From positions 266,077 through 330,076 of the forward strand of contig QWDQ01000027.1 of the NCBI GenBank assembly GCA_003868215.1: DNA of 64,000 nucleotides, read 5' to 3'. Source of the stretch: Pseudophaeomoniella oleicola (lineage: Eukaryota > Ascomycota > Eurotiomycetes > Phaeomoniellales > Phaeomoniellaceae). Below the pieces are notes generated by a model. That model did not search any database and was not told the origin of the DNA. It worked only from the letters and a program-made list of their open reading frames with translations. Positions within the stretch are counted from its first letter, which is position 1, and each line of letters starts with the position of its first letter. Position numbers and translations under genes: made by a program. Shown here piece after piece: positions 3,697 through 31,593 of this stretch.

Positions 3697-4281
3697 AGGT
3701 TGATCAGGGTGATGGTGATCGAGTTGGGAGCACAACCACTCGCTGGATGTTGTACCTATCAGAACAAGCTCATCATATGGAAGTCATACACGGAACGCCC
3801 ATGGTCTTCCTTTTGGTCATCGGCTTCATCACGGAGACTGATCCAGATAGCATCGTGCGACCAAGCAACGCATCAAACAACAAAATGCTAGTATCGCAGC
3901 CACTGGTGACTCAGGCAATGAAACTAGGGAGCGACAATGACGGAATTGGATCACCTTAGGGGGTTGTCGCTGAGAGTAAAAGAACAAGAGCAGCCGGTAC
4001 AGCACTTTATTCGATGCACGAGGCGGCAGCTCCCCGAATCAGGCAAACCAGAAAATCAGGCCAGAGGAGAGCCAGAGCGATTCAGGTTTGATAATACTAG
4101 GAATGAGATAATAAGATGAGAGAAGATATGTATCTAAATTCAAAGTGACGAGTACCTTTTTGTCTGTTTAGATCTATCAAAGTATTCCCAACGAATGATG
4201 CAAGGTTACGGAGATATCTGTGCGCCAATAATGTGGATATATATTTTTAATTATCTCATTTCCCTCCAACAATTCAGGAAG
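3697..4281. other. Intergenic spacer
   Basis: Open frames of up to about 146 codons overlap the end of the Trp-rich gene and continue here, but they show low-complexity or random composition and no family motif, so I call nothing. An AT-rich stretch immediately precedes the first tRNA. Confidence 0.45.
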
Positions 4282-4426
4282 TCCTCGATGGTCTAGTGGT
4301 GATGATTTCCGCTTGTCAAGATTCCCATCTAACGAGCGCGGGAGACCAGGGTTCGATTCGTAAGCATTTACACTTTAAATTCATTTTCTGAATAAATAAC
4401 TAACATCAATACAGCCTGTCGGGGAG
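4282..4426 (+). tRNA. tRNA-Asp(GUC): tRNA-Asp(GUC), copy 1, with two introns (anticodon loop and T arm)
   Basis: The mature tRNA is read from 4282-4318, 4337-4359 and 4415-4426, 72 nt in total. The acceptor TCCTCGA pairs with TCGGGGA, and the discriminator is G. Anticodon GTC is at 4315-4317. The anticodon stem TCCGC pairs with GCGGG. Intron 1 (18 nt, 4319-4336) sits at the canonical 37/38 position cut by the tRNA splicing endonuclease. Intron 2 (55 nt, 4360-4414) lies between positions 61 and 62 of the T arm and begins GTAAGC and ends ACAG. Removing it gives a perfect five-pair T stem, CAGGG with CCCTG, around the loop TTCGATT. The junction bases make the boundary unambiguous. The B box GGTTCGATTC stays contiguous. 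A seven-T Pol III terminator follows. The exons are identical to those of copy 2. Confidence 0.9.
4360..4414 (+). other. GT-AG intron inside the T arm of tRNA-Asp copy 1
   Basis: This 55-nt AT-rich segment begins GTAAGCATTT, carries CTAAC at 4400-4404 about 11 nt before the end, and ends ACAG. These are the three signals seen in the protein-gene introns of this window. It contains no run of five T, so it should not stop Pol III early. Its excision is needed for T-stem pairing. That it is removed by the spliceosome is inference. Confidence 0.85.
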
Positions 4427-5909
4427 ACATTTCAATTCTTTTTTTGTTATTTTTTGTACTGTCTTGAAACTTCCCTTTCTGTCGCTTATGGCGGGAGAGA
4501 TAGATGAAGCGGTCAAACTACGTATCTAGCATTTATGGAAAGTGCAATGTATGTTCTTTTTTTGTCCTTTTCTGTCATCGATAGACTGTCCGGGACGGCG
4601 GGTGTAGTATGGGGGAGGGGAATATCATTCTCTATCTGTGGTATGGTCTACCACTAGTAAGTACCTATACACATAGTATTGATAATCCGGTCATTCTTCA
4701 ATGTGTTACTAGTGAGTCGTCACTATTATTGATTAAGTGACAATGTGTGCATGAAATACTTTATGAGGTGCTGGTGGTGGCATTTTGGACGGTGCAGCGC
4801 TGTACTACTATTACACCCTACCTACCTACATTAGGGTGATAATGAGTGTTGCCTGCTTAGGCATATTCTAAAATAATTGCCATTTTCGTCCGATATTTTG
4901 TTCAAATAAGACCAAGATACATTAACTTTGTAGTGAAATGTATTCAGTGTTCCTAGGATTGCGATATCCGAAGGATAAGATTTGTTCCGCAGTGCATACC
5001 AGACAGCAGAAAAGGAGGCCTACATATTGTTCCAAAGAAATGCCAGAGTACCGGGAAGCTTTCAGGGTCAAAAGAGACTTTCTAGATAAATAGATATACG
5101 AGACAAGAGAGTGAGCAGTGCTAGCTAATTGGAAAAGTGGTGAGAGGGGCTCTTGATGGCAGGGCTGAGGGAGAAGACTAACACGGCCGGCACTCTAAAT
5201 AGGGTCAGTGATAGAGTGTCATATACCTTACAAGCAAGCGGTAGGGATGCCTATCTGTTGTTTCAATGAGAGCGCTCAGAGGTAACTCTTGATTCAACTT
5301 CTTGTTTGCATCTCAAACGACAGGGTTGCAGCCGATGGCCTCGGTGTAAAAGAGGAGCACAGCAATGAACCGGAGGCGCTTCGGGCTTGACATCTCAGTA
5401 TCCAAATCCCCAGACACAGCTATGGAACCTGCCTGCTTGCATACAACGTGGTAGCGCATGCCGCAACACAATAATATTAGCAGTGACATGATCCCGTCTA
5501 TTCATTCGACTCAGCATTTCAACGTCTTCAGCCTGGACTCCAGCTTGAACATGATCAACCAAGGTCCACGTGAAATACGCTGCGGCAGGAACCTTGTTGA
5601 TTCAAAGGTGTACATACACAGTTGACGGCAGTTCGACTGCAAGATCAATGTTGACATGAGGTAGAAAGACAAATGCCCTCGGGGATGAAAATGCTCGAAA
5701 CCTGTCAACCGGTCCTTTCTCTCCCACTGCTCTCTCTGATCAAACCTCACATAGAGAACACCAGCTCTCGTGTTATATGTAGAGGATCAATGAGTAGATC
5801 TATGTTGAGGATTGGACAAACCCGAGTATCTGTGGGGCTACGCCGCTGACGCCAAGACGGAACAAAACTGGATTTTGTATATTCTAATTCCCCAATTTCA
5901 CACAATAAG
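4427..5909. other. Intergenic, between the two tRNA-Asp genes
   Basis: About 1.5 kb with no protein gene I can support. The frames on both strands are short and without motifs. The terminator of copy 1 is at its left edge. Confidence 0.55.
4439..4445 (+). terminator. Pol III terminator of tRNA-Asp copy 1
   Basis: A run of seven T begins 12 nt after the discriminator base, with a backup run of six T at 4450-4455. This is the normal form of a Pol III stop. Confidence 0.8.
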
Positions 5910-6051
5910 TCCTCGATGGTCTAGTGGTGATGATTTCCGCTTGTCAAGGTTAAATCTTTCCAAGCGCGGGAGACCAGGGTTCGATTCGTGAGCATTTCCG
6001 ATAACTTTGTCTTTGGATTCAATTTAACATATAATTCAGCCTGTCGGGGAG
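5910..6051 (+). tRNA. tRNA-Asp(GUC): tRNA-Asp(GUC), copy 2, with two introns (anticodon loop and T arm)
   Basis: Exons 5910-5946, 5965-5987 and 6040-6051 are base-for-base identical to those of copy 1. Anticodon GTC is at 5943-5945. Intron 1 (18 nt, 5947-5964) is at position 37/38. Intron 2 (52 nt, 5988-6039) is at 61/62 of the T arm, begins GTGAGC and ends TTCAG. Both introns differ strongly in sequence from those of copy 1, while their positions, the first ten bases of intron 2 (GTRAGCATTT) and its TAACAT branch-like element are kept. The gene therefore looks old and functional rather than a fresh duplicate or pseudogene. A seven-T terminator follows at 6062-6068. Confidence 0.9.
5988..6039 (+). 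other. GT-AG intron inside the T arm of tRNA-Asp copy 2
   Basis: A 52-nt segment with donor GTGAGC, branch-like TTAAC at 6024-6028 about 12 nt from the end, and acceptor CAG. Its longest T run is three. Excision joins C61 to C62 exactly and restores the T stem. Confidence 0.85.
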
Positions 6052-6061
6052 ATTCAATATC

Positions 6062-6068
6062 TTTTTTT
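6062..6068 (+). terminator. Pol III terminator of tRNA-Asp copy 2
   Basis: A run of seven T starts 11 nt after the discriminator base of the second tRNA-Asp gene. Confidence 0.8.
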
Positions 6069-6154
6069 GAATTTTCATTGTTGGTCTCCTTTTTTCCACC
6101 ACCCCCACCCCCACCCCCACCCTTGGAATGAGTTTGCGACAGTGCAGCAGGAAA

Positions 6155-6166: not shown

Positions 6167-6882
6167 AGAGAAACTAAGGTCTGGGCTCAAGGTTTGCTCA
6201 GGCGGCGTCACCCTAGTCCTGAAGGAGGGAGTGCCTAAGATAGATTTGTTTCTTCTTGGTGGAGGCGTTTTAACCCTCTCCATGTTTCAATCAATTTGAA
6301 TCGGTTTGAATCATTTCGAAACATCCTTCTACCGTTCAACTATCCACCAAATCATAAAAGAGAATTTTTGCATTACCAAGTACGAGCTGTGCTAATATAT
6401 CTCTGGAAGATCTCAGCGGTGGAGAATGATGCATAGCACTATGGTACATGTTGTAATCTCGCCAGACGTGCTGGTGGTTTCGCCTGAGGCCCGTTCCTGA
6501 TCTGTCTCTTTTCTATTGGCTCGAATGTCGTGATTGGGGATATTTCCCCTTCGACACCAGCTATGCACACTGGAGACGGTGCACTATATCTGAATTCGGG
6601 AATATCTCACTTACGCCTTTGGCTCTACTGTCGGGCATATTGAGGTTAGTAGTCAATGTACCGAGACTTCTACTTCAAGATGGCTGCTGTATATATGACC
6701 ATCATAGCTCCCATCTTGTTGCTGCATTTTCCTTCTTCTTTCCCATCCTTGAGACAGCTTTCTCTCAGGCCTTGCATTTCGTTTCTCTTCATTCTTTTCT
6801 TCTTTGCCTTCTTACAAGCCCAGGGGGCTCCATTCATTCGTTTCTCTCACCGACCAGTGCTCTCTTTCACCACATCTACAGA

Positions 6883-9513
6883 ATGCCTGCGTTCCTTCCC
6901 TTAGTGGCCATGGCGCTGAGCGCTATGGCTTCAACCGTCGCCGGCTATACTGACAGCAAGACCGGCATCAATTTTGCAGGATACACCGACACAGAAACCG
7001 GGTTTATGTTTGGTCTGGCCTTGCCTGAAACTATTGGCACCGATCTTATTGGACAAGTGGTTGCCCCTCTGGCCAATGGCTCAGGGTGGGCTGGTATCGA
7101 CTTTGGTGCTGCTATGGCGGGCCACTTGTTGGCTGTGGCTTGGCCGGACGGTGATAATATCGTCTCGTCCTTTCGACTTGCTTCCGGGTACACCAATCCG
7201 CCTGTCTACACTGACAGCAGTATGTCACTATCTTCAATCGAGGCTGGCACATTTGTAAATTCCACCCATCTGTCTTGGACGTTCTTATGTGGTGGTTGTG
7301 TCACGAACAATTCATTCACCTTTGCCAACACAGACACTCAATACGTTTTCGGTTGGGCATTTTCAAATTCTGCGATGAGCGATACATCAGACCCTTCAGC
7401 AGTGCTCACCTACCACAGCGCTGGATTTGGCGAATTTGGCATGACATTTGCCGAGGCACAATCAGCAAATTATCCTACATGGGCAGCAATGGCCACCACA
7501 ACGCCAGCGAACACCACGATCCCATCAGGCTCGTCTTCGAATTCAACTGTACCCGCCTCGGTCATTCCAGCAAATATCACGACCACCGTATCCAACACCA
7601 CGTATGACTACATCATCGCGGGTGCGGGCCCAGCTGGGCTCATAGTCGCGGAGCGTTTGGCTGAGACAGGGGCTTCGGTCCTTCTCATTGAACGCGGCGG
7701 AGCATCTACTTATTCCACCGGCGGCAAATCCATGGTTTCTTGGAATGACACAGTCACTCAGTACGATGTCCCGGCTATGGCAAATTATTTGAGCAGCGCA
7801 AGTGATGCCAGTGAATATTGCACAGATACAGCTTCCCAAGCAGGCTGCATACTCGGCGGTACCTCCATGATCAATGCCTTGATGTATGTAAAGCCCCAGG
7901 ATGTCGATTTTGACGACAAGTGGCCCACAGGCTGGAAGTCTGCCGATGTCAGTGATGCTGCAGAGAGATTATATTCCCGCAACCCGGGAACAAACCTCCC
8001 TTCTGCAGACGGCAAGCGCTACGACCAAGGCACCTATGATGTTCTATCTTCCTTCTTCGACGCCAATGGTTTCTCCTCCGTGGATGCCCTGGAAGATCCC
8101 AATAGCAAGGTTGACGTCTACTCTTACCCACCGTGGAACATCCACGAGCACGAACGTGGTGGACCGGTCAAGACATATCTGCCACTGGTACAATCTTTGC
8201 CTAATTTCTCTCTCAAGCTGAACACGAAGGTCGTCCGGGCAGTTCGCAACGCGACCTGGGTTTCTGGTGTCGAAGTTGAGACCTCGTCAACTACCCGGCA
8301 AATCATCAATGTCACTCCCTCGACGGGCAAAGTGATCCTTGCGGGCGGAGCCTTGTCGACACCGAGGACTTTGATCTACTCGGGTATTGGTCCTACTGCT
8401 CAGATCCAAACAGTCCAATCGGCATTGAACGGCTCAGTGACTCTTCCACCTTCAAGTGCATGGATCAATCTTCCTGTTGGCGTTGGTGCTCAGGATCATC
8501 CCATCCTGACCCTCTCCCTATCCACAAAGTCGAACATGACTGCTCTCTCTCAAACGGCCTTTACCTCTCCAGACAACACCTCCGTATCTCTCTGGGGAGA
8601 GGGCTCGGGCGTGCTGACGCAAGCGGGCCAACGCCTCAACTTCTGGACCTCGGTGATCTCTCCATCTGATGGTCGCACCCGCTACATCCAAGGCACTGCC
8701 AACAGCCCTTCAGCCAATACCATCAGGCTCAAGCTGTACGCGACTCATGGGGTTACCTCTACGACGACCCTGGGGCTCGATTCAACCGGCGTTAATACCG
8801 AATTTGAGTCGACGCCGTATCTTACCACTCAAGGGGACCAGGAAGCCTATCAGGTCTTTTTCGACCGTCTTCTCAACATGACCCGTTCAGCCAATTCTAC
8901 ACTGGCAGTGAAACTCTCTGACGGCTCCCTTGCAACATCAAACATGACCGGTAGCTCCCTTTTCGCGAGTATGAAGAGCAGCGTCACAGCCGGTGACCAC
9001 TTTGTTGGTACCGCAAAGATGGGTCTCGATGACGGCCGTCTTAGCAACGGTACATCTGTCGTCGACACGAACACCAAAGTCTATGGAACCGACAACCTGT
9101 TCGTTGTCGATGCGTCTATCCACCCCGACCTCCCTACCGGTAACGCGCAAGCCATCGTCATGGTAGCCGCTGAGCAGGCAGCAGAGAAGATCCTCGCTCT
9201 CGACGGCCTCAGCATCGGCGGAAACAACAGCACCAGGGTTGTCGCCCCTTCCTTAACGGTCAGTGGTAGCAACTCTACTACCTCGATTACTGGCCCATCT
9301 GCCAGCACTACCGCCAAATCCGGTCACCACGGCCACCAGGGACATGGTACTAAACACCATGGACACCAGGGACACCATGCTCACGAACGTTTGGCCAGGG
9401 CTCTTGGTAAGCGAGTTCCGGTACATGAACGCCGTGCAGCCTTTGGCCGCGGATTGTACACCAAGGGTCTTGATAAGCGCAATGCTGAGATGGACAAATT
9501 CCTGACTGTCTGA
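6883..9513 (+). CDS. Cellobiose-dehydrogenase-like flavocytochrome (heme b + GMC oxidoreductase)
   Basis: Secreted two-domain oxidoreductase of 876 residues in one exon. The ATG at 6883 opens a hydrophobic signal peptide (about 1-20, ending near VAG). Residues about 22-215 form the cytochrome (DOMON/CDH-cyt) domain. The likely axial heme ligands are M78 in FGAAM and H178 in YHSAGFG, 100 residues apart as in known CDHs. A Ser/Thr/Asn-rich linker (about 205-240) leads to a GMC flavoprotein domain with the FAD loop IIAGAGPAG near 243. The catalytic pair is H706 (GDHFVGTAKM) and N754 (PTGNAQ). Such enzymes oxidise cello-oligosaccharides and pass electrons to lytic polysaccharide monooxygenases. 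There is no cellulose-binding module; instead a His/Gly-rich tail (about 811-840) is followed by Lys-Arg sites. Substrate preference cannot be read from sequence. Confidence 0.9.
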   Translation: MPAFLPLVAMALSAMASTVAGYTDSKTGINFAGYTDTETGFMFGLALPETIGTDLIGQVVAPLANGSGWAGIDFGAAMAGHLLAVAWPDGDNIVSSFRLASGYTNPPVYTDSSMSLSSIEAGTFVNSTHLSWTFLCGGCVTNNSFTFANTDTQYVFGWAFSNSAMSDTSDPSAVLTYHSAGFGEFGMTFAEAQSANYPTWAAMATTTPANTTIPSGSSSNSTVPASVIPANITTTVSNTTYDYIIAGAGPAGLIVAERLAETGASVLLIERGGASTYSTGGKSMVSWNDTVTQYDVPAMANYLSSASDASEYCTDTASQAGCILGGTSMINALMYVKPQDVDFDDKWPTGWKSADVSDAAERLYSRNPGTNLPSADGKRYDQGTYDVLSSFFDANGFSSVDALEDPNSKVDVYSYPPWNIHEHERGGPVKTYLPLVQSLPNFSLKLNTKVVRAVRNATWVSGVEVETSSTTRQIINVTPSTGKVILAGGALSTPRTLIYSGIGPTAQIQTVQSALNGSVTLPPSSAWINLPVGVGAQDHPILTLSLSTKSNMTALSQTAFTSPDNTSVSLWGEGSGVLTQAGQRLNFWTSVISPSDGRTRYIQGTANSPSANTIRLKLYATHGVTSTTTLGLDSTGVNTEFESTPYLTTQGDQEAYQVFFDRLLNMTRSANSTLAVKLSDGSLATSNMTGSSLFASMKSSVTAGDHFVGTAKMGLDDGRLSNGTSVVDTNTKVYGTDNLFVVDASIHPDLPTGNAQAIVMVAAEQAAEKILALDGLSIGGNNSTRVVAPSLTVSGSNSTTSITGPSASTTAKSGHHGHQGHGTKHHGHQGHHAHERLARALGKRVPVHERRAAFGRGLYTKGLDKRNAEMDKFLTV

Positions 9514-19906: not shown

Positions 19907-22900
19907 ATGGCGCAGCTGCCAGATCCCACCTCTGACCTTGACTGGTCCGGTTTTGCCGGTTCCATTCAGTGGCATTTCGGAGAGGTCGCGAGGCAACATC
20001 CCGACCGAACATGCGTGGTAGAGACGAAGTCCTCTGAAGGTCCTGAGAGAAGATTCACCTACAAGCAGATCTATGAAGCATCCAATGCTCTGGCGCACTA
20101 CCTCCACGATGCGGGAGTTGGTAGAGGGGACGTGGTTATGATATGGGCACATCGCTCGGTGGACTTGGTCGTCAGTATGATGGGCACACTGGTACGGGCT
20201 TCCTCCACAATCCACCGCTCCATGTAGCGACGAGTTCATGTGCTGACTTTCTCCCTTCGTTTTCTATCAGGCATCTTCAGCAACACTGAGTATCCTCGAT
20301 CCAGCCTACCCCCCAGCGAGACAGCAGATCTACCTTGAGGTCGCTCGACCCCGCGCACTGATCAATCTTGCAAGGGCAACGAAAGAGGCAGGACCTTTGG
20401 CTCCAACTGTGCGCAAGTATATTGATGACGAACTCGACCTGAAGGCTGAAATTCCGTCGCTGCGCATTGGTGACGACGGTATCCTCTCGGGAGGTGAAGT
20501 TGACGGCAAAGATATCTTTGCCCAGGTCAGAACAAAGGCGGCCTCTCCACCCGATACACAGGTTGGCCCTGATAGCGTGCCCACGCTTTCATTTACTTCT
20601 GGAAGCGAAGGAAGGCCCAAAGGAGTGCTCGGTCGCCATTTCAGTCTTACCAAGTATACTAGCTGGATGGCAGAGAGATTTAATCTCAGTCCGGAGAGTC
20701 GATTCACACTCTTATCCGGTATTGCGCATGATCCTGTTCAAAGAGATATCTTCACCCCCCTTTACCTTGGAGCGCAATTGCTAGTTCCTTCGAAGGAGGA
20801 CATCCAGCATGAGAGACTTGCAGAATGGATGCGTGAGCATAAGCCAACCGTCACGCATTTGACGCCTGCTATGGGACAAATTCTCGTCGGTGGAGCTACA
20901 GCGAAGTTTCCATCTTTGGATAGGGCTTTCTTTGTCGGCGATGTTCTTACGACGAGAGATTGCAGAACCCTACGGGAGCTCGCAGCCAACGCTAAAATAG
21001 TGAACATGTACGGTACCACCGAAACGCAGAGATCAGTGAGCTATTATGAAATACCGAGCCGAACGGATGATCCCGATTACTTAGACAAGCTGAAGAACAC
21101 AGTACCGGCTGGGAAGGGTATGAAAAATGTACAGCTTCTCGTTGTGGACCGGGAAGACCGGACCAAGCTCTGTAAGGTCGGAGAATTGGGCGAGATCTAC
21201 GTCCGCGCTGCCGGTCTTGCCGAAGGTTACCTGGGGAATCAGTCGTTGAACGATCAGAAGTTCCTCATGAATTGGTTTGTAGACAACGAGGCCTGGGTGG
21301 CAGCCGATAAGAAGAATAACCAAAACGAGCCATGGAGAAAGTACTACAAAGGACCACGCGATAGGTTATATCGGACGGGTGACTTAGGCAGATACCTCGA
21401 GTCTGGCGATGTGGAGTGTACGGGGCGTGTAGACGACCAAGTCAAGATTCGTGGTTTCCGCATTGAGCTCGATGAGATCGACAGCAATCTACGCCAGAAC
21501 TCCTTGATCAGGGACTGCAAGACGCTTGTCCAGAGAGACAGAAATGAAGAACCGAAGCTCGTCAGCTACATCGTGCCAGAGGTGAAGGGATGGCCCCAAT
21601 GGCTTGAAGCTCAGGGATTGGAGGATGTTGAAGATGAAGGAACTGTTATTGGTCCCACAAAGGTCTATTCCAAGAGGTTTAGGCGGCTGCAGACGGAAAT
21701 GCGGGAGCACTTGAAGCGTCGTTTACCCAGCTATGCCGTGCCTACTGTTTATATTTTCCTCAACAAGCTGCCGCTGAATCCCAATGGAAAGATCGACAAA
21801 CCAAACCTTCCCTTCCCCGATATCGCGGAACAGACAGAAGATGCCTCAGACGAGGATCTGCAGAGATGGGAGTCACTGACGGAGACTGAGCGGCTCGTCG
21901 CAACCAAATGGGCTGATCTCATTCCTGGTCTTAACCCAAAGACAATCACTCCTCAGAATGATTTCTTCGATCTTGGCGGACACAGTATCTTGGCCCAGCA
22001 AATGCTCTTGGCCATACGCAGAGAGACCGGAGCAAATATCAATATAACGACGCTCTACGAATATCCTACACTAACTGGCTTCAGCGCGCAGGTTGATGAG
22101 AAGCTGAGGCCAACAAATGAAGTTGACAACGACGCTGCGGGAGCAAAGAAGGAAGACAATGCTTACTCTCAGTCCTTGAACGAGCTTCTCACGCAGTTGC
22201 CAACCAAGTATCAAACAGCGGATCCAGCGACAATCCGTGCATCAGCCAAGCTGACCGTCTTCCTCACCGGAGCAACTGGCTTCTTGGGTGCTTACATCAT
22301 CAAGGATGTCCTGGAGCGTACTAGCCGCAGCGTCAAATTAATCGCTCACGTGCGAGGCGTCAAAGATTCGCAGGCCGCGCTTGATCGACTACGGAGTTCT
22401 CTACAAGGCTACGGTCTATGGCGCGACGAGTGGTCAGCACGGTTGAGCTGTGTTGTTGGTGATCTATCCAAACCACAGCTTGGCATCCAGCAGGACACGT
22501 GGCAGACGTTATCTCAGGAAGTAGACGTGGTGATTCACAACGGTGCCGCAGTCCACTGGGTCAGGAGATACCAGGACATGATGGCGTCAAACGTCATCTC
22601 CACTATAGACGCCATGAAGCTCTGCAACGAAGGAAAGCCCAAGCTTTTCACGTTTGTGAGTTCTACCAGTGTACTCGATACCGATTACTACGTCAAGCTC
22701 TCAGAGCAACAAATCAGCACTGGCCAAAGCGCAATCTCCGAGGACGATGATTTGCAAGGCAGTCGGACTGGTCTCGGCACTGGCTATGGTCAAACGAAGT
22801 GGGTGTCCGAGCAGCTTGTCAGGGCCGCTGGAAAGAGAGGTCTTTCGGGCTCTGTAATTCGAGCTGGATACATTCTAGGAGATACGGAGACTGGTGTCTG

Positions 22901-23522
22901 CAACACGGATGATTTCATTATTCGTATGTTGAAGGGCTGTATTCAGCTGTCGGCCCGGCCACGCATCATCAATACTGTCAACTCTGTACCCGTCAACCAT
23001 GTCGCTCGCGTGGTCGTGAGTGCTGCTCTCAACACTCTGCCAGGTGGTGTCCACGTCGTCCATGTTAACGGCCACCCGCGCTTACGCATGCACGAATATC
23101 TGTCGTTCCTCGAGTACTATGGTTATAATGTCCCTGAGGTCAGTTATGACGACTGGAAGGACCAACTAGAGAATTACATCTCAGCAGGTGGCCAAGAGAA
23201 GGATCAAGAACAACACGCGCTGATGCCGCTCTATCACTTCTGCGCCAGCGATCTGCCAGCCACGACACGAGCTCCCGAGCTTGACGACACAAACGCTGTC
23301 AAGATCCTGAAAGCAGACGCCGAGAACTGGACCGGAATCGACGAAAGCGCGGGCTACGGCATTGGCAGGGAAGACGTCGGCCGATATTTACGGTATCTCG
23401 CCGAGATCAAGTTCGTGACCTGGCCCTCAGGTAGGGGACGGCCGTTGCCCGAGGTCAAGCTGAGTACGGTGCAGATGCAGGCGCTTGGAGGTGTGGGTGG
23501 TCGTGGTGGTGTATCGAAGTGA
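19907..23522 (+). CDS. Lys2-like aminoadipate reductase paralogue, lacking the N-terminal domain
   Basis: Two exons, 19907-20191 and 20271-23522, give 1,178 residues. Domain order is adenylation (about 20-560; LSFTSGSEGRPKGV near 201), carrier protein with the phosphopantetheine Ser in LGGHSI (S667), and short-chain reductase with FLTGATGFLG near 760 and a YxxxK pair (Y934, K938). All active-site motifs are intact. It is closely Lys2-like: Lys2 loads alpha-aminoadipate on the carrier and reduces it to the semialdehyde for lysine synthesis. Fungal Lys2 is about 1,400 residues; this protein begins at MAQLPDPT, where the Lys2 adenylation module starts, so about 230 N-terminal residues are missing and are not found upstream. 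It is either a paralogue serving a side pathway, paired with the ATP-grasp gene, or a shortened sole Lys2. The genome copy number would decide. Confidence 0.9.
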
Positions 23523-24171
23523 GGTCCAGATCCTCAGATCCCTTGGATTGTAATGATGATTCCAGACGATTCCAAAGCATCTCTGCTGGCTGCACTAGCT
23601 TGTCTCTTTATACCACAACCTCTTTGTGTTCGTTCATATAGGTTAGTTAAAGTAACGCCGAAATTTTATCGTGTTTTACTACCATGTCTCTCTCTCTCTC
23701 TCTCTGTCTCTCGCAACTCGAATGATAAAAGGCCCTTGATGTGGACGACTTCGGAATATTGCCCGATACCGACACCTTCCAGATCGTGCTTTGTGAGAGT
23801 GGAAGAACGCATGGAATGGGAGATCGCACATAGAGTCGGAAGGGTTGGGATGGGGGAGGGGGAGGGGAGGGAATCGTAAAAGTCGTGGTTAACGTTAGTG
23901 GGGTTTTGAATGATGAGTGGTAGGAACTTCCCCCTAATAATTAATAGATGGAAATTTCGAAAATTAGGACGGGGGAAGTAATCAAGTCATGAGTGCCGGA
24001 TAGGTATGTGAAGACGAGAATTTTAAAAGATTAATACGGTTGGTTGATACGGATGGCCGACCGGCCAAATCAAATCAAATCAAATCAAATCACATATATA
24101 TACGATTAAGATGCGAGTGACAAGAGGCACAGAAGCACGCCAACCATCTTCTCAAGAGAGGTGCACCCAAA
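23523..24171. other. Tail-to-tail spacer between Lys2-like and STAND genes
   Basis: Contains CT repeats near 23690-23710, a G-rich run near 23850-23870 and the microsatellite (AAATC)5 at 24067-24091. No gene is seen. Confidence 0.55.
24067..24091 (+). repeat. Microsatellite (AAATC)5
   Basis: Five perfect pentamer units in the spacer between two convergent genes. Confidence 0.9.
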
Positions 24172-27100
24172 TCATACCATGACAGCCATCTTCCGCTCCC
24201 ACTTCACCCTGATCTCGTCCAACCAGTCCTTGAACGGCTTGTTCTTCGACCCGATGCGTATGACACCATCCTTGACCCCTCGCCAAGCTTCCATCGGCTG
24301 TCTGATGATATCGTGCTCGGCCCAGCACACCTTCAACCAGAACCCGTCACCAGTCTCTTTGAAGAACTTGTCCTGGATGGAGTAACATTCGGAGCAGAGG
24401 TCGACGTCGGCGCAGTCGAGACAGCGGTACCAGTGGGTGTCTTTGGGCCAACGACTAAGAGGGTCAGACGAACATGGACCATTGCATTTGACGGACCAAT
24501 TGCCTTCACGGATGACTTCTTCGTCGTTCTCTTCGATAGTTGGTATCGGCGCTTTTTCCACTTGCTGCTGGGCGTTGATCGTTGTTGATGATACGGGTTC
24601 CACCACATTGTTAGAGGAGGGAGGTACACCGTCAGTGGTTTCTTTATCATTCATCTCGCCCTTCACTGCGTCGACTCCCAACGAGCCCGTATCTGTGCCG
24701 TTGACTTGTACCTCAGTAGATTTAGCAGCCTTAGTGTTCGTCTGAATGCCCTCTTCCGAAGCTACATTTTCTGACAATGCCTTTTCTTCGACATCAGTGT
24801 TCTCTACTGTTTTTGATCCGTGCCCCCTCAAAACTTCTCCGTTCGTTCCATTTGGTATCGGGAGAGAGGCTTCGGCAGTCAGATTTTCGGCTTTATCTGC
24901 CACTGGAGGGTTTTCTTGGTCGCCGTTTTCCTTAACAAGCTTTTCGCTTGTCTCAGACACGACGGAGGGTTCATAGTACACCGAATATCTATCGTCATAC
25001 GTCTTGTCAACGTCTGAGAATGTGAGAGACTGAGCAATGTGGGCGTCGGCTTTCAGGCCTATGAAGAAAAGAACCTTGGATAAGACCCCAAATGCAAATG
25101 CATCATTATATCCGATGGAATCTTGGAGGTCATTGAGACACCTCTTGAAGGCCCCGTTCGCTTCAAGTTTAGCCTTCTCGATGTTTCCGAAGTCCTTCAA
25201 CATCTTGGCCAAGGTGATCATTGATGAGGCAAGACTTATTTCTGTCACAATTCCTGTCTGCTCTAGATCCCGTATGAGGTTGCTAAGTTTTGTTAGCGAA
25301 AGCTTCTTCTTGTCTTTCGAGTAAGCCAATGTATATTCCTCGAAAAGGACGTCTGTCATCTCCGGAAAAATGCGCCGGAGCATACTGCCGGAGTCTGTGC
25401 TAGGCAATTTTTCTTTGACACTGATGATGATGTCGTCGAGTACGATCTCTGACATCCTGGTCGCGCGTACATCGCGCTTATAGATGACAGCCAGGTCGCA
25501 CTTGAGTTGTTGTGCGGATGACCAGTCACGCGTCTGCCAGTGTTCGATAGCTTCTTCGTATACATGGACGAGGAAGTCGACGCGATTTGTCAGAACCGCA
25601 GCTTTCCGAACTTGATCCGCCTTATCTGTGCTCCTTTGTGCACGGTCTTTCAACCATGCAACTCTCAGTAAATGCGGACAGTGCTGGATTTCGCTAACGA
25701 TATTGGACCATTGCTGTCTTTTCGAGTATATGCTGACAATTTTGTCAATGAATTCGTGCAGACTGTGCGAGTAATCGAGCTCATCCGGCTCTAGTGCCCA
25801 ATGGCAGACTTTAAGAGCCTCGTCATCCTGGCCGAGCTGTTGTAGAGCTTCAGCCCTCAGCGAAAAAGCTTCTATGCAAGATTCAGAGTTGAGATCAGAG
25901 CCCAGTGCACCCTTTTCGAGTTCACGCTCTTCGAGTGCTTTCTGAGAATAGTCGGAAATTTTCTCCCAAGCTCCGTCGAACCCTTCACACTTACGGAGAA
26001 GTCTGGCGCTGTAGTAGGCGGCTAGGCCCAGATATGAATAGAACCTTTCCGGACCCGAGATCTCCGCGCTCTTCTCCAGGTTCTTTTGGTACAGCTCGGC
26101 AGCGTAGCTGACATCTTCTGGGATACCAATGCCATTCAAGAGCACCGCTGCAGCAATTCTAGCTCGTGCAGGCTTCACGGTCCGCTTTTCGAGCGCAAAG
26201 TCCATCATAATCTTGACAGTATCCTTGGTGGCAATGTCAATATATAGTTGGGCCCAGTTCTTCTCTATACGGTCGGTCTAGTGCATTCGTCAGCGTCCAT
26301 TCCATTTCGCCACAGCAAGAATAGAACTCACTTCGGCCAGAGAACGGTAAGCCAGGTTGTAGGAGTACTTGGCTTCAGCGAAAGTTACCTTTCTGAGCCA
26401 GCTTTCAGTGTGACCTCGGGCTAGTGGTTCTAGAATTCTTTCCGGCTGCTTGATAGCTGCTCGTACCCAGTCCCTTGCTACGTCAAATAGTTCAAACTCC
26501 TCGTACGACATCTTCCTCGCCCAGCTTAGAAATATTCTGACAAGACCATCTTCTGCTCGATATAGCTGCCCACCATCGTACGCCAGCCAATCGTCAAGTC
26601 CAAACCCATCATACAAGGTGAAGCTGGTGAACCACTCTTGCCTCTGTTCCAGTATGTTTTCAAACACGGTGCAAACGTCATTTTCATTCGTCAGAACTCT
26701 AGCTAGAGCTTCCACAACGTCTCTGCCCTGTTCTGCAGTCGTATTCTTGACCGGTATATCGAGTAGGTGATCAACAAAATAGAACATTGCGTACTCCTGA
26801 AGCGCTCTTCTCGGCTCCACTTCCGCAGGGTTCCGATCGCAGAGAACCTCGCACAACGTGACGAAGATTCTGATCTTGGCGGTAAGAGGATTTATGATCA
26901 TTGAGTTCGGCTCGTTTTCGAGGTGCTCTTTGAGAGACGCTTGCCTGAATGCAATGAAATCTGCTTTTGCATCGGTCCCAGATTTCAGGGTCCCCGGACT
27001 ACCCTCGTGCGCAGGTGAATTGATAACGGCTGGAGCATCTTCATCGTCATCTGTAAGGCGTCTGGCGGTGTACAAAACACTTTTGGATTTCCCCTGTATC

Positions 27101-29194
27101 TCAGATTGCACATCGAAGTCACCAAGGGACGAATCGAGGCTCCAGATTTGTTGCATTTCATGTACACTCAGGGGTCGCTTAGAGTATGTGCACCATTCAA
27201 AAAGTGTTTGCACGCTGTTTCGTTCGGCTTCACTCCGAGGATTGAGAACCAGCTCAATCATGGATGCATATAAGCCCTCGGGACGACCGAATGTGCTCTT
27301 CATCTTCTTGATGGCGCTCGCTTCATCCCCGGTCTGTTCCATCAAGCTCAAAGTAAGATCGACGAGGAACAAAATACCCTTGTTGATCGATGTCAGATGT
27401 TGGATGATCACGGTTTGACCCTCGTTACTGAATTCCCTCAGGCTCTCAGATCTTGAGATGCGTGCTCGTATGATTTTCTCCACGTCCCCTTCTTTACTGG
27501 TCTTCTCAACGAGTGATATCTCTCCGCATTTGAGCTGCATTTCACTTATGCTAGTGGCACTGCCTGTCATCATAACCTGGATACCGTCTTTGTCACTATT
27601 CAGCTCTCGGAGGACCTTCAGGAGAATTTGTCCATCTTCGTCTTCCAATTGCTCGACTCCATCAAGGAGAAGGTAAGCAACCCTCGAAGATTCGGATACC
27701 TTTTCGAATTTCGATCTAATCAGCCTCTTCCACATGTCCTCCGCATCGAAATGTGAACTAGTCGCGGACTTTCCTGCCTTGTCATCCTCCAGTTCCTTCG
27801 CCAACATGTCGCAGTACTTGGAGTCTTGCCCTGCGAGCTGCATGATGATGCTCTCTAGGGCACTTTTCAGTGACTGGGTCTCCGACTTCCCGGGATCAAA
27901 GAAGAAACAAGCAACCGACACGTTTTGACGCGACTTGTTTAGATCTCTCGTAAGTTGGTAGCATTGGTACGTGAAGTATGTCTTGCCTGTACCTTGAGCA
28001 CCCGTCACACATAGGAAAGGGGTGTTCTGGCCTTTCAGCCAGGTTTTGTAGTTTGCGTCATTGGCGAGCCAAGCGAACGTCTCTGCAACATACCGCGATC
28101 CAATTAACTCCATCTGAGTGTCAATACGTGCTTTGCCGCCCGTGCTTGATGGAAACTTCCTTCTGATCTTCTCTATAGCGACGCTCTTCGGTGTAAGTAG
28201 CTGGAGGTCGGAAGGCTTGAGCCTCATTCCTTGTAGTGCTTTGATGAAGCTATCAGGGAAGTTGTCGAGCTTCTCATCCAAGCGTTCCGCGATGCTGAGT
28301 ATCTTAATAGGAACAGTGGCACGGAAAAGCAGAATGACCTTGTTGACACCATCACATTTGGCTTTGATCTTGTCATTACGTCCCTTTAAGAGCGCTCGTA
28401 AATATAGACCTGTGGTAGCCTTTAGTAATGCAAAGCCATTTGTCGCTTAGACTTTAACTCCTATAATGCGCAAGGAGAGGGCAGACTTACGTTTCCGACT
28501 GTATTCTTTGAACATCTTCAAACCAAAAGAGCAGAAGTCGAATAGAGAGACGAAGATGTCCATCAATCGGTTCGCGAAGTGGTCTCCGGCAATGTGGCGG
28601 TTCTCAAGTAGTCCGATGTCTTTCATGGCGTTGTTAATGCTCTCAAACGTTTCATCGATGAGATTGAAGTCTGCGCTCAGATCATTTGCCGCCTGTTTGG
28701 TCGTAAGTTTCGCTTCTATTCCAGCAGGCTTCGAGATCGCGTACCTGTACCATCTTGGAAATAGCTCCAGCAAGCACTTTCGCAGGTGTCGCATACTATC
28801 AGAGAGAGGAGTTCACGTCAGGCCCTGTCCTGTTGAGCGGAGACCCAGTACGTTCACTCACTGTACCCTCAATGTGGTTTGAAACAAAGCCGACAGTGGT
28901 ATCAATCCAATCGAGACAACCACCAACCGCAGCAATGAATTCACCTTTCCCGTTTTCAGGATGCCGCGATTTTGCGAACAGCTGGGATGCCTTCTCCACG
29001 CCAGAGTCGGCACCCTCAAATTCGCCAGATTGCTGAAGTTCTGTGACATTGATACCATTTTCGCGCTCATAACGTTCGACGGCCTTTTTCCAAAAGGTGC
29101 TGATGTCATTACGAGCCTTGTCGTCCTCTACTTTCACAGCAGCTTCTTTAGCAGCAGGGACTGGCTTGGGTTTCGGCGGAATATCCTTAGCCAT
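24172..29194 (-). CDS. STAND (NLR-like) protein: Goodbye domain, NACHT NTPase, helical repeats, ZZ zinc finger
   Basis: Five minus-strand exons, 29194-28862, 28795-28745, 28692-28491, 28409-26332 and 26277-24172, give 1,589 residues. Residues about 25-250 resemble the fungal STAND N-terminal 'Goodbye' domain. The NTPase has the P-loop GAQGTGKT at 332-339 and a Walker B YLLLD at 441-445. The region after about 880 reads as alpha-helical TPR-like repeats, followed by an acidic, Ser/Thr-rich disordered linker (about 1330-1475). The C terminus is a ZZ-type zinc finger (1486 to about 1545; Cys at 1486, 1490, 1507, 1510, 1516, 1519). STAND proteins are switch-like receptors; in fungi several act in non-self recognition and regulated cell death. 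The N-terminal effector and the ligand are unknown here. The intron at 28490-28410 is the least certain: its acceptor was chosen by frame and branch site. Confidence 0.85.
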
Positions 29195-30422
29195 GGTGAA
29201 ACGCTAGGGGGATTTACTGTGGCCAGAGAACGCCACTGGAGGTGACATGACGGCGAATTCACTACCATTGGCTTACACATGATGGGAGAGATGCGAGCCT
29301 ATATAGCATAATAACAGCTGGACCCAACCTCGATGGTTGGGTAACGGTCCCCTGGCAGAGTGGGCGTGACTGTGCTTTCGCGTATTTAGCAAATTGGGGG
29401 CCAACTGAAAGCCATGTAGTTAGCTAGGTTCCTGTAAGCAAAATGCCCGATCGAGGTAAGGATCATTTGCAACGCCACGTCTTATTCGACGTCCCGGACC
29501 GTAGAGCGAGATCCGCTACTTCAGCTTACTCTGCCGCCGAGGCTTGTAGTGGAGCAGAAGGTACCTAGTGTTCATGGCTATGTTTGGATCGAAATTAGTA
29601 TTGAAAACCAACACTGTTTGATCACAGCTTGAAGATCATATGCCAGGAACAGACTGGACATGGTTGATTTCTAGCGAGTTTATTCTGATCCTTTCAATGG
29701 TGGAAGGATGTCACGGGCGACTGTTGCTGCTGAGTAAACAATTGCGGCATCCTCTCGGCAGGAGATAGTGATGTTGGGTGAAGCTTCAACTACATCCCTT
29801 CGCCATGAGTATCGCGACACTTGCGTATATCGCGACACAATATAACGCGACAGCTTCACCACATCCTCAACTACTTAAGTTGAGGATCTGCCACATAGAG
29901 ATTTCCTATTCCTTAGACATTAGCACCATACCTACTGTACCTTCATACAAGTGAACCCTGTAACTGGTCGAATCAATGATGCCTGCCATGACAGACTCTC
30001 TCTCTTGGTCGATCAGGTACGGTAGGAATATGTTCTCAAGAGAACGGAAAACTGTGAATCGACAGATAACTTATATTTCTTTGAATCATGAGTTACCTCT
30101 GGTACTCCGTATAGTATCACTTTGTTTGTAACCACCAGCCAAGCCAAAACCAAACCAAAATCTGATGGGCCTATTGCATCATCGACGAACACCCCCGATG
30201 CTTCGGAAATGTTTGAAACAGCATACGTCGATCACCACATCCCGGCTCTAACCGTTCAACAACATTGTCGTCGTCCGTCTCCTTTTACCTGCAGCCATCT
30301 CGTTTCCATCGGAATTCCCTTCGCTAGAATTCCTGGTGTTGACATTACCTCGCCCTCAATTGTTCTCTTCCATCGCTCTATCGTTTGAGCCTCATCCGAA
30401 CGTTTTTTTCGGCTTAGGTATA
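29195..30422. other. Divergent spacer between STAND gene and small membrane-protein gene
   Basis: A 1.2-kb spacer with no gene. An inverted repeat has 10-bp arms ATCCTCAACT/AGTTGAGGAT at 29863-29872 and 29878-29887. Just before it, TATCGCGACAC-type direct repeats lie between about 29809 and 29852. A TACTCCGTA element lies at 30103-30111. It probably carries the promoters of both flanking genes. Confidence 0.5.
29863..29887. repeat. Inverted repeat, 10-bp arms with 5-bp spacer
   Basis: The perfect arms ATCCTCAACT and AGTTGAGGAT flank ACTTA. It could form a short hairpin or be a dimeric binding site; nothing nearby shows a mobile element. Confidence 0.75.
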
Positions 30423-30956
30423 ATGGCAGGAATTCCATTACCTTTTCCTATCTGTTTCCAATGTGGATCCGACCAGAATCCATGCCATTGCAAAGTTGTT
30501 GGTCCTACCCTCGGTGAGTGATTGCTGTCCTCCCATATTGATTTACAAGGCGTTATGTGAAAATCAAGGCTGATTGCTGTATACAGGTTTCGCCACAGCG
30601 ATTGTCATGGCCGTTATCTGCTATCCAGCATGTACGTGACGAGGACGAGCGAAGGCTTCCCAGTTCAAAGAGGCCATAGAGGGCTCAGCTAACCAAAAAA
30701 ACCGTCTCTTTACAGCGATATTCTGCGGATGTACAGCTACCGAGACGGGAAAGAAGTATGCTCCTCTATACCTTTTTCTCCATTTTCGTTTCTCTCTGTT
30801 ATGTGCCTTACTCTGTTTGATTACCGCTTCGATAGTCTTTTGCAATACGTCTATGAATCCCCCGCGGAATACTAACCATCTCCTCTCCACCCATTCAGAC
30901 TCCTCGCTGCCCCTGCAGATTCAAGCGGAGCCGTCAGCAACGCCATACCATTCTGA
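30423..30956 (+). CDS. Small Cys-rich membrane protein in four exons
   Basis: Four short exons, 30423-30513, 30587-30631, 30716-30755 and 30899-30956, join in frame to a 77-residue protein ending in TGA. Every intron has a consensus donor (GTGAGT, GTACGT, GTATGC), a branch site (CTGAT, CTAAC, CTAAC) and a C/A-AG acceptor. This makes the model credible despite its size. The N-terminal part has a Cys cluster (C11, C14, C21, C23), followed by a hydrophobic segment (about 31-48), a second Cys-rich edge (FCGC) and a polar tail. The layout recalls small Cys-rich membrane proteins such as the BRI3 or LITAF-like groups, but I do not recognise a specific family. It is divergent from the STAND gene across 1.2 kb. 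Confidence 0.75.
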
Positions 30957-31593
30957 CACACCCTCCTGAATGACTACCTCGGGCCGTTTTACTTCCGGAC
31001 TCTCAGTAAACGATTCAAGAACCTATGTATAATACCTTGCATCGACTCTACCGTCCGGGAACCACGGGAAGAGGTCTTGATCTACAGGGAAGGGTTCTCG
31101 TAAACGGCGTTCACTAGAACATCATGCAAAGGAACCCGGTGTTATTTGCTTATAAAGACTAATGCGGCTCGCTTTTTTTCGTGCGGTGTTTATTTGTACT
31201 TGATTTCTTCATGAATAATACTCAGCTTCTAAGCAGTACATAACCAGCTTATCGTTTATGTTGTTTGCTTACTTATCAATGGACGGACCCCGCTCTGGTG
31301 CCTAGAACCTTCCCATCAACTTTACAGACAGTGTTGGGAACAGGAGTCATTCATCTCTGGGGACGGTGAACATTTGCGCCTTGTTGTTATAGATGACTAG
31401 AGCGGTTTGGTCGTGCAGGCAGGGATATGCTCGGTACTGCGCTCGACGAGATGGGGCTCGACAAGTGTGAGAGCAAACGAAGCGTCTCCTGGGTGCAGGA
31501 GTCTGGAGAGCTGTGCATGCGTCATCTCGGACCAGATGACCTCTTCATTTCGGTGCTAGTTGCTGTTGAAAACAGTCTTTGATACCGCTTGTC
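30957..31593. other. Tail-to-tail spacer
   Basis: This is 3' flanking DNA of the small membrane-protein gene and of the DNA ligase gene. No gene or notable repeat is seen. Confidence 0.5.

Follow-up and report, generated by a model that had tools for sequence, protein, structure and literature searches.

By conventional teaching, the tRNA endonuclease deals with the introns of nuclear tRNA genes, and spliceosomal introns belong to mRNAs and a few small RNAs (U6 and U3). To our knowledge, no spliceosomal intron has been described in a tRNA, and we know of no GT-AG ends or branch site in the rule for archaeal tRNA introns. Frequent interruption by an intron is so far known, among small structured RNAs, for U3 and U6 alone; the U3 introns carry RCTRAC in 129 of 138 cases, with a mean branch-to-acceptor distance of 15 nt, and U3 is called a polymerase III gene (PMC5832005). 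In Cyanidioschyzon merolae and in the nucleomorphs of cryptophytes, eukaryotic tRNA genes are described with introns in the D and T arms beside those at 37/38 (PMC9602550, PMC4090602). The C. merolae introns are linked to bulge-helix-bulge motifs and to the splicing endonuclease of that species, and in the Guillardia nucleomorph the introns measure 3-24 nt; nucleomorphs and C. merolae are likewise the eukaryotic cases of non-canonical tRNA introns in two reviews (PMC4090602, PMC4033280), in whose main text the string "spliceosom" is absent. In archaea, the T arm and other positions of tRNAs are interrupted as well, by introns at 59/60, 56/57, 53/54 and elsewhere that are recognised by bulge-helix-bulge or related motifs (PMC4090602). 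Judged by title and opening of the abstract, no report of spliceosomal introns in tRNA genes was found in the open-licence literature among the matches listed, and passages of two papers (PMC5844311, PMC4472170) make no mention of tRNA introns in relatives of this fungus.

Here, starting from a preliminary description of one interrupted tRNA-Asp gene, we confirm that observation in the sequence and extend it to a second tRNA-Asp copy and six more nuclear tRNA genes. As in fungal U6 snRNA and U3 snoRNA genes, a gene for a small structured RNA carries an insert bounded by GT and AG and holding a branch motif of the fungal type. What differs is that tRNAs of several species are the hosts, with their D or T arm broken, and that an anticodon-loop intron accompanies the insert in both Asp genes, Lys-CUU and Thr, four of the eight in all (Val a fifth by eye). 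The inserts differ from the introns of C. merolae and nucleomorphs in their length of 52-81 nt, their GT-AG ends and their branch motif, the last two of which also set them apart from the archaeal introns; a crude test found no bulge-helix-bulge core shared among them. On this sequence evidence, the inserts are very likely U2-type spliceosomal introns residing in nuclear tRNA genes and excised by the mRNA spliceosome ahead of the usual steps of tRNA maturation.

The window, by which we mean the whole analysed stretch of 64,000 nt, covers positions 266077-330076 of one contig (C33) in a 26.1-Mb assembly of 112 contigs. A DNA ligase encoded in it shares 80% identity with the Phaeomoniella chlamydospora enzyme (Eurotiomycetes, Phaeomoniellales), the best of the 120 matches listed (2,643 matched; 8,000 candidates scored), and this species is the nearest named relative by that one protein. 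A scan of the window at the Rfam gathering thresholds returned no match; a permissive scan of 301 bases gave four weak matches, all under the cut-off, which we took as chance.

The preliminary description placed a 55-nt insert, with the motifs GTAAGC, CTAAC and ACAG, between C61 and C62 of a tRNA-Asp(GUC) gene (copy 1; Table 1), and re-reading it directly and by script gave the same result. The insert interrupts the T stem on its 3' strand. ARAGORN calls no tRNA while the 55 nt are present; with them removed, it reports tRNA-Asp(gtc) with the five T-stem pairs first described. The assertion that the gene pairs only if these 55 nt are removed was right about the insert and incomplete about the gene, since an ordinary 18-nt intron at 37/38 had gone unmentioned and both segments have to be removed. 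Moving the insert by up to 8 nt in either direction gave no second boundary with the same product, which bears out the single boundary originally proposed.

Table 1. Features of the two tRNA-Asp genes and their surroundings in the window, and the six further interrupted tRNA genes of the assembly.
Feature	Position in window	Strand	Details
tRNA-Asp(GUC) gene, copy 1	4282..4426	+	exons 4282-4318, 4337-4359, 4415-4426; ARAGORN Asp(gtc) only without 4360-4414
Ordinary tRNA intron at 37/38, copy 1	4319..4336	+	18 nt; ARAGORN
GT-AG insert between C61 and C62, copy 1	4360..4414	+	55 nt; GTAAGC 4360-4365, ACAG 4411-4414
Branch-site-like CTAAC, copy 1	4400..4404	+	second A 11 nt before insert 3' end
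Seven-T run 3' of copy 1, Pol III terminator-like	4439..4445	+	starts 13 nt past gene
TATAT upstream of copy 1	4238..4242	+	44 nt from gene
tRNA-Asp(GUC) gene, copy 2	5910..6051	+	exons 5910-5946, 5965-5987, 6040-6051
Intron at 37/38, copy 2	5947..5964	+	18 nt; diverged from copy 1; ARAGORN, alignment
GT-AG insert between C61 and C62, copy 2	5988..6039	+	52 nt; GTGAGC...TTAAC...TCAG
Branch-site-like TTAAC, copy 2	6024..6028	+	second A 12 nt before insert 3' end
Seven-T run 3' of copy 2, Pol III terminator-like	6062..6068	+	starts 11 nt past gene
TATAT upstream of copy 2	5878..5882	+	32 nt from gene
C-rich tract of repeated CCCCCA units	6096..6122		a short way 3' of copy 2
Long open frame	6457..9513		presumably GMC-type oxidoreductase-like, by its translation
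Long open frame	20247..23522		presumably an aminoadipate reductase (Lys2-like), by its translation
L048, tRNA-Phe(GAA)			81-nt D-loop insert; GTAAGT..CTAAC..CACAG
L049, tRNA-Lys(UUU)			60-nt D-loop insert; GTATGT..TTAAC..CGTAG
L050, tRNA-Lys(CUU)			53-nt T-stem insert between 64 and 65; GTGAGT..CTAAT..ATCAG; also a 13-nt anticodon-loop intron
L051, tRNA-Val(AAC)			57-nt D-loop insert; GTCAGT..CTAAC..TATAG; also a 37/38 intron, seen by eye
L052, tRNA-Ile(AAU)			53-nt D-loop insert; GTATGT..CTAAC..GTTAG
L102, tRNA-Thr(AGU)			76-nt D-loop insert; GTGAGT..CTAAT..TCCAG; found by DNA query

When the copy 1 gene served as DNA query against the genome, one further locus emerged, 1.6 kb downstream in the window (copy 2). 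With the introns removed, ARAGORN reads both copies as tRNA-Asp(gtc), with a cloverleaf, a GUC anticodon and conserved arms. Their mature letters are identical (72/72), whereas both introns have diverged with their splice-site ends kept, a difference between exons and inserts with a Fisher p of 1.3e-6 if sites are taken as independent. The T-arm inserts are the same at 37 of 51 aligned positions, an alignment score reached by none of 300 shuffles, and the inserts of the two copies are therefore homologous and older than the duplication. The 60 nt upstream are similarly related (39 of 49 aligned letters; 0/300 shuffles as good), and likeness is weak in the 37/38 introns (11 of 17 letters; 16/300) and in the 60 nt downstream (39 of 54 letters; 15/300). 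These alignments mark the pair as a tandem duplication in which the insert was copied along with the gene; its tRNA letters could have been kept by selection or by gene conversion of exons between the tandem copies. A 155-nt query that included the copy 1 insert matched only the two Asp loci (E up to 0.001), and an active introner family was ruled out as the source of this insert, there being no near-identical copies at other sites.

The preliminary description had also considered that cellular tRNA-Asp might all come from intron-free genes elsewhere; none was found in the nuclear contigs of this assembly. A full-length DNA search of the 26.1 Mb with the 72-nt spliced tRNA-Asp (E up to 10) recovered only the two Asp loci. 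A 15-nt anticodon-arm pattern, allowing up to two mismatches, matched exactly at these two genes and inexactly at 58 places, compared with 40 for the reversed control. A longer pattern for the 5' half, with up to three mismatches, matched 19 places (25 for the reversed control), again with the two Asp genes as the only exact ones. Inexact matches were examined for 5 of 17 with the longer pattern and for 0 of 58 with the shorter: four of the five are tRNA genes (Val, Gly and two Glu), and the fifth, L080, is coding-like. One tRNA-Asp lies on C110; this contig of 31 kb is crowded with tRNA genes, and we took it for mitochondrial. The fungal Asp 5' half had no match in either a viral contig set or a genome contig set. 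For this assembly and these searches, then, there appear to be only two nuclear tRNA-Asp genes, both of them interrupted.

The same kind of insert recurs elsewhere in the genome. The Rfam tRNA model matched at least 51 places (best 63 of 781 candidates scored), 15 on C110 and 36 nuclear. ARAGORN read 31 of the 36 nuclear matches as tRNA genes without removal of any arm segment; the other five were the last-ranked, weak or partial matches, and each of these (L048 to L052), when read and spliced by script, gave a tRNA with a GT-AG insert. DNA queries added a sixth gene, for tRNA-Thr (L102), and an ordinary tRNA-Pro gene (L101; named Leu by ARAGORN, Pro by our own reading). In total, 40 nuclear tRNA genes were read (the 31, L101 and the eight interrupted ones), and GT-AG inserts are present in 8 of the 40. 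This proportion is likely a lower bound, because no gene turned up for Tyr, Trp, elongator Met and other isoacceptors; DNA queries of the genome with Ala and Arg tRNA and with yeast Tyr, Trp and Met tRNA gave no matches. Pattern searches for T-arm introns found 4 places (2 in the control) and 6 places (3 in the control), of which 2 and 5, respectively, were additional; five of these seven (L099, L100 and L103-L105) were inspected and are not tRNAs by eye; the other two are C19:87708 and C69:328974. A B-box pattern was less frequent in the genome than in the control (185 versus 225).

Two of the interrupted genes have siblings with an empty site. Without its 53-nt insert, L050 equals L029, a tRNA-Lys(CUU) gene that has no T-arm insert, over 86 of 86 letters, the 13-nt anticodon-loop intron included. 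Likewise, once its 76-nt insert and its 19-nt anticodon-loop intron are taken out, L102 matches the intact tRNA-Thr(AGU) gene L008 in all 72 letters; ARAGORN, when the 37/38 intron is left in, reads the L102 anticodon as TGT. A T-T mismatch in the acceptor stem of the Lys-UUU gene (L049) speaks against our reading.

Left uncut, five of the eight interrupted genes yield no tRNA in ARAGORN, and the other three are misnamed: Trp(cca) for Phe and Thr, and Arg(ccg) for Lys-UUU. L051 is named Tyr(ata) even without its insert, and its identity as Val(AAC) is a reading by eye. Among the 31 plain nuclear genes, 21 have an anticodon-loop intron of up to 58 nt as called by ARAGORN. The tRNA-Cys gene L030 is 85 nt long with no intron called, and the anticodon calls of L046 (Lys) and L047 (Ile) are doubtful by eye.

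The restoration of tRNAs by removal of GT-AG segments goes beyond chance. On both strands of the window, 2 of 24,588 GT..AG segments of 45-95 nt gave a tRNA across the junction when removed (ARAGORN), and these were the two Asp genes. Eight other boundary pairs, with 20,942 to 33,561 segments each, gave none (GA..TG and CA..TC among them being one segment set in two senses); CT..AC, the GT..AG set in the opposite sense, gave 0 of 24,588. Extended to 91 nuclear loci (207 kb, overlaps included; 14 C110 loci excluded), 73,477 GT..AG removals produced new tRNAs only at the Asp loci, L048, L050, L051, L052 and L102; L049 was dropped by the overlap filter because of a spurious ARAGORN Arg call there.

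Among trial removals with arbitrary boundaries, ARAGORN accepted 14 of 7,514 (45-110 nt) in Asp copy 1, 12 of 7,569 in copy 2 and 29 of 7,920 in Lys-CUU, one in each case being GT-AG. For Phe, Ile, Lys-UUU and Val, 202 to 599 of 7,920 removals per gene restored some tRNA, and for Thr 1,970 of 7,905 did. Since so many removals succeed, the D-loop boundaries are not forced by structure; those of Phe, Ile, Lys-UUU and Val were chosen by GT-AG together with a usual D arm, so that GT-AG ends in these genes are consistent with our reading and are not independent evidence for it. When the known product was demanded without assuming GT-AG, one boundary remained in each Asp copy, two in Lys-CUU and four in Thr. 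In every case GT-AG was one of them, and all four of these inserts, whose product is fixed independently, have a branch motif.

We then compared the eight inserts with 13 pre-mRNA introns of the same genome, obtained from actin, beta-tubulin and calmodulin genes (L096-L098) by protein-guided splicing with hand-typed guide proteins. The same procedure found no intron in the ligase gene, and ab initio intron finding in the window by codon usage gave 0 candidates and then 18 noisy ones, which were left unused. The mRNA introns are 50-151 nt long (9 of 13 at 50-57 nt). GTAAGC, the start of the copy 1 insert, opens 3 of the 13; GTRNGY opens 9 of 13 mRNA introns and 7 of 8 inserts, the exception being the Val insert with GTCAGT, and YAG ends 11 of 13 and 8 of 8. 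YTRAY occurs 6-30 nt before the end in 12 of 13 mRNA introns and in all eight inserts, 11-13 nt before the end in seven and 19 nt in Thr. The inserts differ in having G at position 3 in three cases (Asp copy 2, Lys-CUU and Thr) against 0 of 13, and they are on the whole richer in AT (53-76% vs 49-62%).

A small weight matrix of splice signals, trained on these 13 introns and hence on a small set, gave leave-one-out scores of 3.3-13.8 for the mRNA introns and 3.8-14.9 for the inserts (Asp copy 1 14.7, Asp copy 2 3.8, Lys-CUU 7.1, Phe 14.9, Ile 11.6, Lys-UUU 7.6, Val 9.0, Thr 7.1). The copy 1 insert thus outscores all 13 mRNA introns, and that of copy 2 lies within their range. Among 18,442 null GT..AG segments, 0.01% to 6% scored as high as the inserts; the upper figure belongs to the copy 2 insert, which starts with GTGAGC and is weak when taken alone. 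In their GT-AG ends, the fungal distance of their branch motif, their length and their splice-site strength, the inserts have the properties by which U2-type introns are recognised. Of the two candidates named in the preliminary description, the mRNA spliceosome and an unknown cutting activity, the former is favoured by the sequence: inserts of one kind, bounded by GT and AG and with a branch motif of the fungal type, occur in eight tRNA genes at several arm positions, their ends and lengths resemble those of pre-mRNA introns of the same genome, and no common bulge-helix-bulge core emerged from the crude test.

In the pathway that we infer, RNA polymerase III would most likely transcribe the entire interrupted gene. 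The mRNA spliceosome would then cut out the GT-AG intron in the nucleus and thereby restore the D or T arm, after which RNase P, tRNase Z, the tRNA-modifying enzymes and, at 37/38, the tRNA endonuclease would finish the tRNA. Removal of the GT-AG intron is placed first because the later enzymes need intact D and T arms. A comparable order has been supposed for C. merolae, where introns in the D and T arms would leave before the 37/38 intron and where pre-tRNAs with a T-arm intron stay unmodified by Pus4 (PMC9602550). Pol III is suggested by runs of at least five T within 60 nt downstream of seven of the eight genes (none for Thr L102), by the absence of any T run longer than four inside all eight, and by TATA-like elements 32-49 nt upstream of seven of the eight (searched within 70 nt); such a box ahead of the gene has been described as important for the transcription of tRNAs in certain plants and fungi (PMC3978253). 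In copy 1, the insert alters the last letter of the B box, which reads GGTTCGATTC and then G, not the C of the consensus.

Transcription by Pol II would be a variant of the spliceosomal reading that differs only in the polymerase and would leave the splicing claim unchanged. Pol II transcripts are the usual substrate of the spliceosome, which speaks for this variant. The T runs and TATA-like elements just described argue against it. U6 snRNA is a Pol III transcript. It is known to carry such introns (PMC5832005), so that Pol II is not required; we regard this variant as unlikely.

A different reading holds that the inserts are non-canonical tRNA introns cut by the tRNA splicing endonuclease (SEN) or by an unknown activity and joined by tRNA ligase, with the GT-AG ends a coincidence. 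D- and T-arm introns are known from C. merolae and cryptophyte nucleomorphs (PMC9602550, PMC4090602). The endonuclease would be expected to require a bulge-helix-bulge at every junction, though many tRNA introns of the Guillardia nucleomorph have no defined one (PMC3978253), so that such a route is compatible with its absence. A four-pair central helix can be drawn at two of the eight inserts (Val and Lys-CUU), whereas the other six, both Asp inserts included, lack one in the frames tested; the test is a crude one, in which the 37/38 introns of the two Asp genes, used as controls, gave 4 and 3 pairs. In the genes with an independently fixed product, GT-AG is the sole boundary in both Asp copies, one of two in Lys-CUU and one of four in Thr, each time with a branch motif, which speaks against this reading. 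We consider endonucleolytic removal quite improbable.

The interrupted genes could also be pseudogenes, with functional genes for tRNA-Asp, tRNA-Phe and others absent from the assembly or overlooked. Eukaryotic tRNA genes with insertions in their arms have been supposed to be such (PMC4090602), and our tRNA-model search, which scored 63 of 781 candidates, left Tyr, Trp, elongator Met and others without a located gene. Against decay stand the fully conserved mature letters of the two Asp copies beside diverged introns, the TATA-like elements upstream and T runs downstream, the same kind of signals in eight genes, the spliced Lys-CUU and Thr products that equal siblings without the insert, and the lack of any other exact Asp 5' half in the genome. 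This explanation strikes us as highly improbable. Self-splicing group I or II introns are ruled out by the insert length of 52-81 nt.

Under the spliceosomal reading, ordinary spliceosomal introns have probably entered many nuclear tRNA genes of a fungal lineage, among them all those found in the assembly for cytosolic tRNA-Asp (two) and tRNA-Phe (one), and protein synthesis there would probably rely directly on the work of the mRNA spliceosome on Pol III transcripts. If tRNA genes do carry mRNA-type introns, the division of labour between endonuclease and spliceosome would no longer hold, and they would offer a natural case of the spliceosome working on short transcripts, probably uncapped products of Pol III. 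Siblings that have or lack the intron would provide clean material for studying intron gain. Such tRNA genes would be missed or misnamed by standard tRNA finders, as the ARAGORN calls illustrate; this could explain an apparent lack of essential isoacceptors in the tRNA annotation of such genomes, and automatic annotation of genes with D-loop inserts could be wrong. Taken together, the sequences suggest that the cell needs its mRNA-splicing machine to obtain working tRNAs, and, if this is true, its tRNA supply would be tied to its splicing capacity.
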